DNA of 64,000 bases from Pseudomonadota bacterium. GTDB taxonomy: Bacteria > Pseudomonadota > Gammaproteobacteria > Burkholderiales > JAKAFK01. Below are positions 53,000 to 59,261 of the stretch, one piece after another; the first letter of the stretch is position 1; each line of letters opens with the position of its first letter. The stretch covers positions 1 through 64,000 of the forward strand of contig JAJYKK010000001.1 in assembly GCA_021788645.1 (NCBI GenBank), read 5' to 3'. The notes under the pieces were generated by a model that was not told the DNA's origin, searched no databases, and saw only the letters and a list, made by a program, of their open reading frames with translations. Position numbers and translations under genes: made by a program.

Positions 53000-53200
53000 A
53001 AAATCACGGCCCTTGACATATACGCGTTACACGCCGGTGTTGTAATCTTGTCCGCTGACGCTTTGTCCGTCGCCCCTCCATCGATTGGCCGCACGTCGGT
53101 CAGTCGCGCCCCGGGGGCCTTTCTCCGGCTGGGGAGGGGCCCGAATAGGAGCGGAGGGCGAATTGTGCCCGGTGTATCGTTAACCTCGAAAGGAAAAGCA

Positions 53201-53446
53201 ATGAAATACTCCGTATTGGCTGCCGCGTTGCTGGCCGTTGCCCTGACCGCTTGCCAGAAGAAAGAAGCCGCTCCCGCCGCTGGTCCCGCGACCGCGCCTT
53301 CCACTGCTGCGGCCCCTGCCGCTCCCTCGACGGCCGCTCCCGCCGCTGCCGCTCCTTCGACGGCTGCTCCGGCTGCTCCCTCGACCGCTGCTCCCGCTGC
53401 CGGCACGGCTCCTGCCATGCCGGCCGCCGGTACCGCTGCCAAGTAA
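53201..53446 (+). CDS. Small Ala/Pro-rich lipoprotein
   Basis: The 81-residue protein starts MKYSVLAAALLAVALTAC, a lipoprotein signal with cysteine as the lipid-attachment residue, then a charged QKKE and about 60 residues of Ala, Pro, Ser and Thr in AAPSTAAP-like repeats. It has no folded domain and could act as a flexible envelope spacer or surface lipoprotein. AAAGGA is the ribosome-binding site, and a very strong terminator follows. OmpR-type sites lie upstream, so it may be under the OmpR-like regulator, by inference. Confidence 0.85.
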   Translation: MKYSVLAAALLAVALTACQKKEAAPAAGPATAPSTAAAPAAPSTAAPAAAAPSTAAPAAPSTAAPAAGTAPAMPAAGTAAK

Positions 53447-54943: not shown

Positions 54944-55777
54944 TTATTGCTCGTAGAACTGATCCCCCTCGACGAACGACCAGACCCGCGAAATCCGCAG
55001 GATGCTGTGCTGTTCGGCATACTTGGGGGGCAGCGGGGCATAGGGGGCGGCCAGTTTGGCGATCCGGATGGCGGCCCGGTCGAGCACTTCCGAGCCGGAG
55101 GGCTGTTCGATCTCGATCCGCGCGAGGCTGCCGTCGGCCCGAATGAAGACGGCGACCCGCAAGCTTCCATACAGGTGGAGACGTTTGGCTTCTGCCGGAT
55201 AGTTCAGGTTGCCGATGCGCTCGACTTTCTGTACCCAGCTGGCTTCATATTGTTCCAGGGCATAATCGCGCGGGCTCGGCTCGATGATACGGGTGCGCGC
55301 ATCGAAGCCGTCGTTGGCACCGAGCGCTTGCGCCATGGCGAGGCTCGCGGCCGCAAGGTCTGCCGGCGCGGCGGGCCGGGAGGCCGATTCGCCGGGGACT
55401 GAATGAAATGGCGCAACGCCGGCGCGTCGGCGCATGCGCTCCGGCGAGCCGGCGTGAACCGTCCGGTGTGCGCTCGGGGTGGATGCGGAGCGCCTCCGGC
55501 GGTGCGGCGCAAGACGGCGCGGCGGCTTGGCGATGGTACGGTGGGCCGGAACGAGCGGCGGCGCGGGCGATTGCGGCGTGACGGCGGCCAATGGGGGAGA
55601 GGGCGGCGCGAGAGTCGCCTCCAGCGTCGTGGGCACATTGGCCGACGTCTGCCCATGGCCCGCGGAAACCGGGGAACGGTGGTGCGTCCAGAACAGGAGC
55701 AGCAGGTGCACGCAGACGGACAAGCCCAGGGCCGTCGCGAGCCGCTTCGCGGGCGCGTCATCAAATATCAAACCCAC
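54944..55777 (-). CDS. tonB: TonB-family energy transducer
   Basis: This 277-residue protein has a short N-terminal tail, a membrane helix (LATALGLSVCVHLLLLFW) containing the conserved Ser/His contact to ExbBD, a long Pro-rich linker, and a C-terminal TonB domain (YPAEAKRLHLYGSLRVAVFIRADGSLARIEIEQPSGSEVLDRAA). It transmits the proton-driven motion of ExbBD to outer-membrane receptors. exbBD are 53 kb away in this window. The tandem small-RNA candidates are encoded just upstream on the same strand. Confidence 0.92.
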   Translation of the reverse strand: MGLIFDDAPAKRLATALGLSVCVHLLLLFWTHHRSPVSAGHGQTSANVPTTLEATLAPPSPPLAAVTPQSPAPPLVPAHRTIAKPPRRLAPHRRRRSASTPSAHRTVHAGSPERMRRRAGVAPFHSVPGESASRPAAPADLAAASLAMAQALGANDGFDARTRIIEPSPRDYALEQYEASWVQKVERIGNLNYPAEAKRLHLYGSLRVAVFIRADGSLARIEIEQPSGSEVLDRAAIRIAKLAAPYAPLPPKYAEQHSILRISRVWSFVEGDQFYEQ

Positions 55778-55855: not shown

Positions 55856-55893
55856 AAAAAAAAGAACCCCGGTTAAAGGGGAAAAACCGGGGT
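55856..55893 (-). terminator. Terminator hairpin of unit A
   Basis: ACCCCGGTT (55866-55874) pairs with AACCGGGGT (55885-55893) around a 10-base loop. On the minus strand the stem is followed by TC and eight T (55863-55856). It also insulates tonB, whose start is 79 bases farther along that strand. Confidence 0.75.
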
Positions 55894-55950
55894 CCGAAGG
55901 ACCTTAACGTAGATGTCAAGGTTGCCCGCCTAGGGAGGAAGGCGGGGAAC
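55856..55950 (-). ncRNA. Candidate small RNA, unit A (anti-Shine-Dalgarno loops)
   Basis: Read on the minus strand, unit A has a GC stem-loop at 55946-55925 (6 pairs, loop TTCCTCCCTA), then a weak small stem at 55922-55901, then a 9-pair stem-loop at 55893-55866 (loop TTTCCCCTTT) followed by a run of eight T, a standard intrinsic terminator. Both strong loops expose C/U-rich sequence complementary to ribosome-binding sites. Unit B, 178 bases away, repeats the same order with paired base changes that keep the stems. A transcript of about 95-100 bases is inferred; a convincing promoter was not found. Confidence 0.55.
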
Positions 55951-56037
55951 GAACAACTCGCTCGTAAATTAAGACAAGAAAAGATCCGAATTGGTTCCGG
56001 CAATTTTCTATGCGGCGTGCACAGCGAGGATGAACAT

Positions 56038-56075
56038 AAAAATGCCCCGGTTTAAAGGGGAGGAAAACCGGGGCA
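56038..56075 (-). terminator. Terminator-like hairpin of unit B
   Basis: GCCCCGGTTT (56044-56053) and AAACCGGGGC (56065-56074) form a perfect stem, extended by a T-A pair, around an 11-base loop. On the minus strand five T follow (56042-56038), weaker than in unit A. Confidence 0.6.
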
Positions 56076-56127
56076 AAATGCCTTAATTGGGTTAAGGCTA
56101 CCCGCTCAGGGAGGGGGAGCGGGGAGC
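56038..56127 (-). ncRNA. Candidate small RNA, unit B (anti-Shine-Dalgarno loops)
   Basis: Unit B repeats unit A: a 6-pair stem at 56123-56101 (loop CCCCCTCCCTG), a perfect 7-pair stem at 56098-56080 with a five-base loop, and a 10-11-pair stem at 56075-56043 (loop TCCTCCCCTTT) followed by five T. Compared with unit A, stem pairs change together: C-G to T-A in the first stem and A-T to G-C in the last. Such covariation argues that the RNA fold is what is conserved. Orientation is set by the T-runs. Function as a ribosome-binding-site blocker is inferred. Confidence 0.55.
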
Positions 56128-56454
56128 AGCGTTGGCCGCTCACATCATCAGACTGCGGGGTTTGCTCGAAGTTCCTGAGAGATTAAAAATCGCGGTGAAG
56201 ATTCCCTCGGTCTTCGGGCGACGCGACACGTCGGCCTGGGGCGGGCGTGCGGCGTTGCCTGCCGATGGCATGGTCTAGACTTCCCATTAGGGAATGCCTT
56301 GCTTTAAATGCGCCTGCGCCTGGTGTCGGCCGATGCCGGGGGAGGCAGTGGGGCGCGCTCGCGAGACGCCGAAAATGGGTCGGGCGGCGGGCGCCCCGGC
56401 GGGGGGATCCCATGGCGCAGGTTGTCGACCATCTTTATAGCCAGGAAATACGTC

Positions 56455-56868
56455 ATGTCCTCGCGGGACCCTGGGTCGTGGATGTGGGCGCAAGCATTGG
56501 CGCTGCTGGAGGAGGCCGAGGGACTGCATCGGCGGTTCTTCCGCTTGGCGGTGGGCGAGGCGCATACCCCCGTCTGGGAACTTCCCGTCGACATTTTCGA
56601 GGACCAGGGAGGGCTCACCATCGTGGCGGCCTTGCCGGGGGTCTCGCCGGAGGCGGTCCGCATCGAGATCGGCTCCGGGATCGTGAGCATCGCTGCCGTA
56701 CGTCCCATGCCGGTAGGGCCTGGGGCCACGGCGATCCACCGCCTCGAAATTCCGTACGGGCGCTTCGAGCGGCGGGTGGAGCTTCCTCCTGGGCGGTACC
56801 GGCTCGAGCATGAGCAGGTCGCCAACGGATGCCTGCTCCTGCGTCTGGGCAGACTGTCCGAATTTTGA
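56455..56868 (+). CDS. Hsp20/alpha-crystallin family protein
   Basis: The 137-residue protein has an alpha-crystallin domain: WELPVDIFEDQGGLTIVAALPGVSPEAVRIEIGSG, with the usual LPG...PE segment, then a second half with RLEIPYGRFERRVELPPGRY matching the conserved beta strands. It is expected to hold unfolded proteins. AGGAAA is seven bases before the ATG. lon follows after 17 bases, so the chaperone and the protease are co-transcribed. A heat-shock promoter was not identified. Confidence 0.88.
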   Translation: MSSRDPGSWMWAQALALLEEAEGLHRRFFRLAVGEAHTPVWELPVDIFEDQGGLTIVAALPGVSPEAVRIEIGSGIVSIAAVRPMPVGPGATAIHRLEIPYGRFERRVELPPGRYRLEHEQVANGCLLLRLGRLSEF

Positions 56869-56885
56869 CGCGAGGTCTTGCAGCC

Positions 56886-59261
56886 ATGCACGACGAACCC
56901 AGCCTTCACCCGGCCCCCAAGTCCGACGTGCCGAGCGAGTTGCCCGAGGATGCTACCATCATCCTTCCGGTGCGCAGCACAGTGCTCTTCCCGAACATGG
57001 TGATCCCATTGTCGGTAGGGCGCCAGCGCTCGATTTCAGCCGCCCAGGAGGCTGCGCGGCGGGAGGTGCCGCTCGGCATCATCCAGCAGCGCGATCCCTC
57101 GGTCGACCTGCCCAATGCCGCCGATCTTTATACCGTGGGCACGCTTGCGGCCATCCTGCGCTATGTGACTGCTCCGGACGGATCGCATCATGTCATTTGC
57201 CAAGGGCAGCAACGCTTCAGAGTCGTCGAGTTCATCGAGGGCTACCCCTTCTTTGCCGCGCGCATCGAGCGCGTGGCGCAGGAGGAGGCGCCCTCGCCCG
57301 CGCTCGAGGCGCGCCTTTTGCACCTGCGCCGTCAGGCGCTGGAAGCCCTCGAGCTGATGCCGCAGGCACCCGCTGAGCTGGCGGGGGCCATCGAGGCCGC
57401 CGGGTCGGGCGACGCATTGGCCGATCTCGTGGCCAGTTTCATGGACATCAAGCCCGCCGAGAAGCAGGAGGTGTTGGAGACCTTCGATCCCGTCGCGCGC
57501 GTGGAGAGAGTCAGCGCCTTCCTCGCCCATCGTCTGGCCGTGCTTCGCCTGTCGCAGGAAATCGACCAGCAGACCAAGGAAAGCATGGACAAGCGGCAGC
57601 GCGAATACCTGCTGCGTGAGCAACTCAAGACCATCCAGCGTGAACTCGGCGAGAGCGAGCCCGGCACCCTGGAGGTGGAGGAACTCACCCGGGCCGTGGC
57701 GGCTGCGCAAATGCCGGAGGAGGCGGCGGAACAAGCCAAGCGCGAACTTGCTCGCCTGGAGCGCATGCCGGAAGGCGCCATGGAATATTCGATGATTCGT
57801 GCCTACCTGGACTGGCTCGTCGCCCTGCCCTGGGCGAAACTCGGCGAGGAGCGGATCGACATTGCCGAGGCGCGCAGGATATTGGACGAAGATCACTACG
57901 GGCTGGAACGGATCAAGCGGCGCATCCTCGAGCATTTGGCGGTGCGCAAGCTCAATCCGTCCGGCAAGAGCCCCATATTGTGCTTCGTCGGACCGCCTGG
58001 CGTGGGCAAGACCTCGCTCGGCCGCTCGATCGCGCGCGCGACGGGACGCGCGTTCATCCGCGTCGCGCTGGGCGGCGTGCACGACGAGGCGGAAATCCGG
58101 GGCCACCGCCGCACCTATGTCGGCGCCCTGCCGGGGAATATCATCCAGGCCATCCGAAAGGCCGATACGCGCAACCCCGTCTTCATGCTGGACGAGCTGG
58201 ACAAGCTGGGTGCCAGCTTTCAGGGGGATCCGTCGGCGGCGCTGCTCGAAGTCCTCGATCCGGAACAGAACGGCACCTTCCGCGATACCTATCTGGCCGT
58301 GCCTTTCGATCTGAGCAAGGTGATGTTCATCGGCACCGCGAACGTCCTTGACACGATCCCCGGACCCTTGCGTGACCGGATGGAAGTCATCGACCTGCCC
58401 GGATACACGGAGGACGAGAAGGTCGAGATCGCCCGCCGCTATCTCGTCCGGCGTGAACTTGAGGCAAGCGGCCTGACGCCTTCGCAATGCCAGATCGACG
58501 ACGGGGCCTTGCGGGTCATCGTGCAGGACTATACCCGTGAGGCGGGGGTGCGCAATCTCGAGCGCGAGATCGGACGGGCGTTTCGGCACGTGGCCGTGCG
58601 CATTGCAGAGGGCGCCGAGCAGTCGATGCGCATCGCGGCCGACGATCTCGCAAGGATTCTCGGGCCCCGGCGCTTCGAAAGCGAGGTGGCCTTGCGCACC
58701 GCCATGCCGGGAGTTGCCACCGGGCTCGCGTGGACGCCGGTGGGCGGCGATATCCTATTCATTGAGGCGACCCGGATTCCCGGGGGCGGCCGGCTCATCC
58801 TGACGGGGCAATTGGGCGAAGTCATGAAGGAAAGCGCACAGGCGGCGCTGTCCCTGGTGAAATCGCGGATGGAGCGGTTGCGGCTCGCGCCGGACCTGTT
58901 CGAGAAGAGCGACATCCACATTCACATCCCTGCCGGCGCTATCCCCAAGGATGGGCCCAGCGCAGGCGTCGCCCTCTTCATTGCGCTCGTCTCCCTACTG
59001 ACTGGGCAGACCGTGAGGGCGACGACGGCGATGACCGGAGAGATCAGCCTGCGCGGCCTCGTGATGCCGGTGGGCGGCATCAAGGAGAAAATGGTCGCCG
59101 CCGCCCGCGCCGGGATCTCGACCGTCTTGCTGCCGGCCCGCAATCACAAGGATTTCGAAGAGATCCCGCAGTCGGCTCGCGACCGGCTGTCCTTCGTCTG
59201 GCTCGAGTCGGTGGACGATGCGATAGGCGCTGCGTTCGAATCATCCGTTATTTCCGGGTAG
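56886..59261 (+). CDS. lon: ATP-dependent Lon protease
   Basis: The 791-residue protein has the N-terminal LON substrate-binding domain (ILPVRSTVLFPNMVIPLSVGR), an AAA module with Walker A GPPGVGKTSLG near residue 370 and a DELDKLG Walker B, and the C-terminal protease with the Ser-Lys dyad in PKDGPSAGVALF (Ser near 692) and GGIKEKMVAA (Lys near 735). Sequence and order are canonical; length fits the Lon A type. It is linked to hsp20. Confidence 0.97.
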   Translation: MHDEPSLHPAPKSDVPSELPEDATIILPVRSTVLFPNMVIPLSVGRQRSISAAQEAARREVPLGIIQQRDPSVDLPNAADLYTVGTLAAILRYVTAPDGSHHVICQGQQRFRVVEFIEGYPFFAARIERVAQEEAPSPALEARLLHLRRQALEALELMPQAPAELAGAIEAAGSGDALADLVASFMDIKPAEKQEVLETFDPVARVERVSAFLAHRLAVLRLSQEIDQQTKESMDKRQREYLLREQLKTIQRELGESEPGTLEVEELTRAVAAAQMPEEAAEQAKRELARLERMPEGAMEYSMIRAYLDWLVALPWAKLGEERIDIAEARRILDEDHYGLERIKRRILEHLAVRKLNPSGKSPILCFVGPPGVGKTSLGRSIARATGRAFIRVALGGVHDEAEIRGHRRTYVGALPGNIIQAIRKADTRNPVFMLDELDKLGASFQGDPSAALLEVLDPEQNGTFRDTYLAVPFDLSKVMFIGTANVLDTIPGPLRDRMEVIDLPGYTEDEKVEIARRYLVRRELEASGLTPSQCQIDDGALRVIVQDYTREAGVRNLEREIGRAFRHVAVRIAEGAEQSMRIAADDLARILGPRRFESEVALRTAMPGVATGLAWTPVGGDILFIEATRIPGGGRLILTGQLGEVMKESAQAALSLVKSRMERLRLAPDLFEKSDIHIHIPAGAIPKDGPSAGVALFIALVSLLTGQTVRATTAMTGEISLRGLVMPVGGIKEKMVAAARAGISTVLLPARNHKDFEEIPQSARDRLSFVWLESVDDAIGAAFESSVISG

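Follow-up and report, generated by a model that had tools for sequence, protein, structure and literature searches.

Tandem small RNA genes of the anti-hemB family with sigma-E-type promoter motifs, located between tonB and hsp20-lon in a bacterium of the order Burkholderiales

The anti-hemB family of small RNAs (Rfam RF02837) was first found in Burkholderia as Burkholderia RNA 7, and one of its members is ncS04 of B. cenocepacia (PMC5688073), a 105-nt RNA whose 3' end was confirmed by RACE, which was among the Northern-blotted sRNAs and for which co-purification with Hfq has been reported (PMC5688073). The level of ncS04 was constant over seven conditions, and its Rfam match gave no functional clue (PMC5688073; PMC4603805). 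In the open-licence literature, neither a function for anti-hemB nor a paper naming the accession RF02837 or tying the family to sigma-E was found. Tandem sibling sRNAs are also known from Neisseria, where NmsRA and NmsRB carry anti-Shine-Dalgarno (anti-SD) motifs in the linker between SL1 and SL2 and in the SL2 loop, and have lrp as a neighbour (PMC5362039).

The DNA analysed here (referred to as the window) is a stretch of 64,000 nt from a member of the Burkholderiales. Between tonB and hsp20-lon it contains two hairpin RNA units of ~110 nt, both on the minus strand and with starts 177 nt apart. The features of the locus, compared where possible with a sister genome (the single other genome compared of the same family-level group), are as follows.

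54944-55777, minus: TonB-like protein, downstream neighbour (Pfam TonB_C, 1.1e-12)
55859-55948, minus: sRNA body of unit 2, with hairpin 1 (loop UCCUCCCU), hairpin 2, terminator hairpin (CCCC in loop) and U-run; RF02837 match of 56.2 bits, fold, covariation; 88/90 identical to the sister genome
55947-55963, minus: 5' hairpin (leader) of unit 2, from the fold; leader 17/17 identical to the sister genome
55970-55974, minus: putative -10 element of unit 2, TCTTA, identical in the sister genome
55993-55998, minus: putative -35 element of unit 2, GGAACC, identical in the sister genome
56036-56125, minus: sRNA body of unit 1, with hairpin 1 (loop CCCCUCCCU), hairpin 2, terminator hairpin (loop UCCUCCCCUUU) and U-run; RF02837 match of 71.4 bits, fold, covariation; 90/90 identical to the sister genome
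56124-56141, minus: 5' hairpin (leader) of unit 1, from the fold; leader 17/17 identical to the sister genome
56148-56152, minus: putative -10 element of unit 1, TCTGA (TCTCA in the sister genome)
56169-56175, minus: putative -35 element of unit 1, GGAACTT (sigma-E type), intact in the sister genome; a family-wide motif
56413-56868, plus: HSP20-like protein, divergent neighbour overlapping the 5' end of lon (Pfam HSP20, 1.5e-4)
56829-59261, plus: Lon protease, divergent neighbour (Pfam Lon_C, 2.3e-81)

The 3' end of the HSP20-like gene overlaps the start of lon by ~40 bases, an arrangement that is the same in the sister genome.

The tandem elements are genuine small-RNA genes and members of the catalogued family RF02837. 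The covariance model (Rfam 15) matched both units over its full length (model 1-81) with 71.4 bits for unit 1 and 56.2 bits for unit 2, the gathering score being 49.5 bits, and both units display the traits of the family, namely three conserved, covarying hairpins with a CCUCCCU loop. A preliminary description of this DNA had recognised no named family in the units, a view which has to be corrected, and the kinship to the families with which they were compared was not borne out: the ar14/cuckoo RNAs (RF02344) scored 30.5 and 21.8 against a gathering threshold of 58.8, and sX13 (RF02232) reached 26.7 against a threshold of 50. These two families, as well as LhrC, NsiR1 and rnk, were dropped as their scores lay under the respective cut-offs, and the toxic sRNA RF02278 had no match in the window, nor, with the limit relaxed to E<=1, in the sRNA region. 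Elsewhere in the window, a small lipoprotein-like ORF with Ala/Pro/Ser/Thr repeats (53048-53446, plus) matched the sRNA model weakly and by chance. While the anti-hemB family as such is already known, what is new is its second, tandem site, together with sigma-E-type promoters and a second anti-SD loop common to most of the order.

The stems, the loops, their order and the T-runs on the minus strand had been described correctly, and so had the compensated stem changes quoted between the two copies. Missing from that account were a further 5' hairpin ahead of hairpin 1 and a promoter-like sequence of its own at each unit; once the leader is counted, each RNA comprises four hairpins (5' hairpin, hairpin 1, middle hairpin and terminator). 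The hairpin part is far more stable than its shuffled counterparts (z = -5.95 and -5.96, with no shuffle equally stable), and with the 5' leader included the z-scores are -6.8 and -6.9. In an alignment of 48 copies 90.3% of the cells pair, and two-sided changes are found in 15 of the 22 pairs (8.2 +/- 1.4 when shuffled), counts which represent non-independent events, the aligned rows being related. The covariation score was 0.275 versus 0.138 in shuffled alignments, none of the 500 shuffles reaching either this score or the number of two-sided pairs, and pairing fell to 28-57% in slid controls. Every helix is backed by covariation, the middle one most. The earlier proposal of a tandem of sRNAs with a conserved structure and anti-SD loops is well supported.

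The best conserved part of the RNA is its loops. The loop of hairpin 1 contains CUCCCU in 56 out of 56 Rfam-retrieved loci, and its invariance rests on these loci because the copies selected by regular expression had been pre-filtered on CTCCCT. The terminator loop, which reads CCUCCCC in unit 1 and CCCC in unit 2 (UUUUUCCCCUUU), contains CCCC or UCCC in 60 of the 72 copies. Comparison with the sister genome reveals a footprint: the units are 100% and 97.8% identical, the leaders 100% and the promoters 89% and 94%, as against 68% in the spacer and 60% upstream of the elements.

A generic sigma-70 promoter scan found none at the units, and ECF-type boxes were therefore examined. Unit 1 is preceded by GGAACTT-N16-TCTGA (56175-56148), a perfect motif and the only exact GGAACTT-N16/17-TCTNA match in the window, where 0.03 would be expected, while the motif of unit 2, GGAACC-N18-TCTTA (55998-55970), is good. 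With transcription predicted to start 6-8 nt past the -10 box, the RNAs would begin at about 56141-56143 (unit 1) and 55963-55965 (unit 2) and have lengths of ~105-110 nt, close to that of ncS04 (105 nt). In the same genome, the hemB-side copy (L002:1430-1500) has a weak, degraded motif, GGAAGT-N19-TTTAA, and hence it is the tandem pair which appears to carry the sigma-E-type control in this genome.

A sigma-E-type motif is located 21-31 nt ahead of hairpin 1 across the order. It scores at least 9/10 in 54 of the 73 copies, versus 1.0% of dinucleotide shuffles of the same regions, and in a larger set GGAACT-N17/18-TCTNA, which corresponds to the consensus of RpoE (sigma-E, the envelope-stress ECF sigma factor), precedes 67 of 90 copies from 33 of 37 families, whereas windows placed at random in the same loci have it in 0.25% of cases. 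Two of the genomes (G001 and G027) have a similar sequence, TGAACT-N17/18-TCT, ahead of rpoE itself. RseA is present in 62 of the 68 genomes checked, and the sister genome has both RpoE and RseA, the latter adjoining rpoE. The draft genome of the window, which is 92.9% complete, yielded no RseA and no full RpoE, ECF matches being partial or weak only, and three genomes of family f21 possess the motif with no RseA match. The motif was absent from the examined copies of groups f32 (Burkholderia; L012, L013, L039, L165) and f49 (L112, L118, L133, L148, L164), and the folded copies of both groups had no second C-rich (terminator) loop. At several f32 and f49 loci, TATGAT/CATAAT-like boxes stand in place of the sigma-E-type motif. 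In the complete f49 genome G233, where no RseA was found and no RpoE match exceeded the cut-off, the copies have no sigma-E-type motif and most of them have CATAAT-like boxes. We strongly infer that the promoters preceding the copies of this family across most of the order are of the sigma-E type.

The genome from which the window derives (107 contigs) harbours three anti-hemB copies, and the sister genome has the same tandem as well as the same hemB copy. The typical place of RF02837 beside hemB, which is outside the Rfam definition, is occupied by the third copy (C65:94787-94880), whereas the tandem pair is found at tonB/lon instead. This third copy is divergent from hemB (93627-94589, minus): the start codon of hemB is ~170 nt away from the model start of the copy and ~150 nt away from the point where its RNA is predicted to begin. 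An antisense role against hemB was rejected, as the copy, despite the name of the family, does not overlap the coding region of that gene. The order is the one containing Burkholderia (the f32 genome G284 is 86.6% matched to a replicon of B. cenocepacia), and at E<=1e-4 the family is present in 282 of 399 sampled genomes of the order (~70%), mostly in a single copy and usually beside hemB. Among the sampled genomes, the tonB/hsp20/lon site was seen in the group of the window only, and relatives of the TonB locus from named genomes had no copy nearby; the site is therefore lineage-specific as far as seen. Tandem copies also occur in G233, which has a pair 184 nt apart (L132:5993-6258) and six anti-hemB-like copies in all (see also L148), and in G057, where an independent pair is located at hemB (L197:1541-1777), its second copy being degenerate (38 bits, under the Rfam cut-off). 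In several genomes of family f25 (L182-L194), sRNA paralogues away from hemB are found at scattered loci, most with a GGAAC-type promoter of their own; the sRNA forms a multicopy family there.

The sigma-E-type promoters suggest that these sRNAs act under stress to shut down the translation of other genes. We favour the explanation, with a probability of roughly 0.6, that the tandem anti-hemB paralogues are sigma-E-controlled, trans-acting anti-SD repressors. Each unit would be transcribed separately from its own RpoE promoter into an RNA of ~105-110 nt, consisting of the 5' hairpin, hairpin 1 with the invariant CUCCCU loop, the covarying middle hairpin and a rho-independent terminator with the second C-rich loop. 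Both RNAs would accumulate when RpoE is active, be bound by Hfq at their U-tails and pair in trans, by way of the C-rich loops, with the Shine-Dalgarno sequences of selected mRNAs, thereby blocking the translation of these mRNAs. The bases flanking CCUCCC differ between the two tandem copies (CCCCUCCC against UUCCUCCC) and from those of the hemB-side copy (UUCUCCUCCC), so that a shifted set of targets is possible; the two copies would also provide an extra dose. The sequences show that the units are paralogues within the family, that they are structured and conserved, and that the promoter-like motif recurs throughout the order; that RpoE is the sigma factor concerned, that the RNAs depend on Hfq in this organism and that they repress by anti-SD pairing are the parts that we infer. 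The earlier suggestion that the loops can pair with ribosome-binding sites holds as far as the fit to Shine-Dalgarno sequences is concerned, but in a small test on the ribosome-binding sites of 40 genes of the window the 7-nt loop complements showed no consistent excess. In the hemB-side copies, loop 1 fits the ribosome-binding sites of porin genes, but their AGGAGA is an ordinary Shine-Dalgarno sequence. Against the explanation also stand the failure to find RseA or a full RpoE in the window's own draft genome, the f21 genomes that have the motif but no RseA match, and the flat ncS04 levels in the tested conditions in Burkholderia, which is the sole place with measured expression and one where the motif is absent.

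The same sRNAs could instead respond to another stress (heat, oxidative or nutrient) if GGAACT-N17-TCTNA were recognised by an ECF sigma factor other than RpoE. GGAAC-like -35 boxes are indeed common among ECF sigma factors, and both the neighbouring hsp20 and lon, which hint at heat stress, and the ECF matches of the window's own genome and the f21 genomes with no RseA match mentioned above would be in line with such a reading. We nevertheless consider it rather unlikely, given that RpoE is the best fit to the motif, that rpoE itself is preceded by a similar sequence in the same genomes and that RseA is so widespread in the genomes checked. In a metabolic switch of the Neisseria type, the units would answer to growth rate or to stringent control, sigma-E being a side input, and would act as general repressors of TCA-cycle genes by anti-SD pairing. 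NmsRA and NmsRB are likewise tandem, ~70% identical to each other, of similar size and C/U-rich, with anti-SD pairing on TCA genes (PMC5362039), and may well be functional analogues of the units; yet their anti-SD motifs occupy the linker and the SL2 loop rather than the loops of SL1 and the terminator, their neighbour is lrp and not tonB or lon, and a sigma-E-type promoter differs from a stringent-response one, which renders this switch improbable.

Is mRNA pairing involved at all? An RNA that binds and sequesters a protein or Hfq could be expected to be as repetitive and fully structured as this one, to be multi-copy in some genomes and to bind Hfq, as reported for ncS04. Since its best conserved parts are loops whose match is to Shine-Dalgarno sequences and not to a known protein motif, such a mode of action seems decidedly improbable. 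That the units are merely terminators or dispersed repeats devoid of trans function is hardly tenable: although each of them ends in a terminator-like hairpin, covariation extends over all three stems, leader and promoter are conserved, and the homologue ncS04 has been confirmed experimentally.

As for the other C/U-rich sRNAs, the cuckoo-type RNAs ar14/NfeR1 (RF02344) and CcsR1-4 of Rhodobacter likewise form hairpins with CCUCC loops and are multicopy. The CcsRs resemble the units in being driven by a stress sigma promoter (RpoHI/HII), but they are processed from a single operon with DUF1127, whereas the two units described here are each provided with a separate promoter and terminator; the flanking genes identified by Pfam are those for TonB and HSP20/Lon. 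NfeR1, unlike the units, is sigma-70 driven. The toxic sRNA RF02278 of Betaproteobacteria (the double-hairpin ncS03/05/27/62) shares CU-rich loops, multiple copies and the bacterial group with the units, but, as stated above, its model had no match there. The proposed logic is the same as that of RybB, MicA and MicL of enterobacteria, which are sigma-E-driven, Hfq-associated sRNAs repressing translation. We know of no sequence or structural kinship between these and the units, and the enterobacterial sRNAs pair mostly by 5' seeds, while pairing by loops is proposed here.

The units have the same three stems, CCUCCCU loop and terminator as RF02837 in general, and differ from the Burkholderia-family (f32) copies read in their tandem arrangement, their location at tonB/lon, the sigma-E-type promoters and the C-rich loop of the terminator. 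It is tempting, albeit with slightly worse than even odds, to extend sigma-E control from the tandem paralogues to the anti-hemB family as a whole, which would then be the sigma-E envelope-stress sRNA arm in most Burkholderiales, a betaproteobacterial counterpart of RybB/MicA with two anti-SD loops. Burkholderia would have lost the sigma-E control and the second loop, and the lineage of the window would have duplicated a copy into a tandem with altered loops by tonB and lon. Burkholderia, the case that has been studied, would accordingly be atypical for anti-hemB. The conserved sigma-E-type promoter provides the first regulatory context for this widespread family and makes an orphan family directly testable; if the proposal is true, Betaproteobacteria possess sigma-E-driven repressor sRNAs without known kinship to RybB and MicA.
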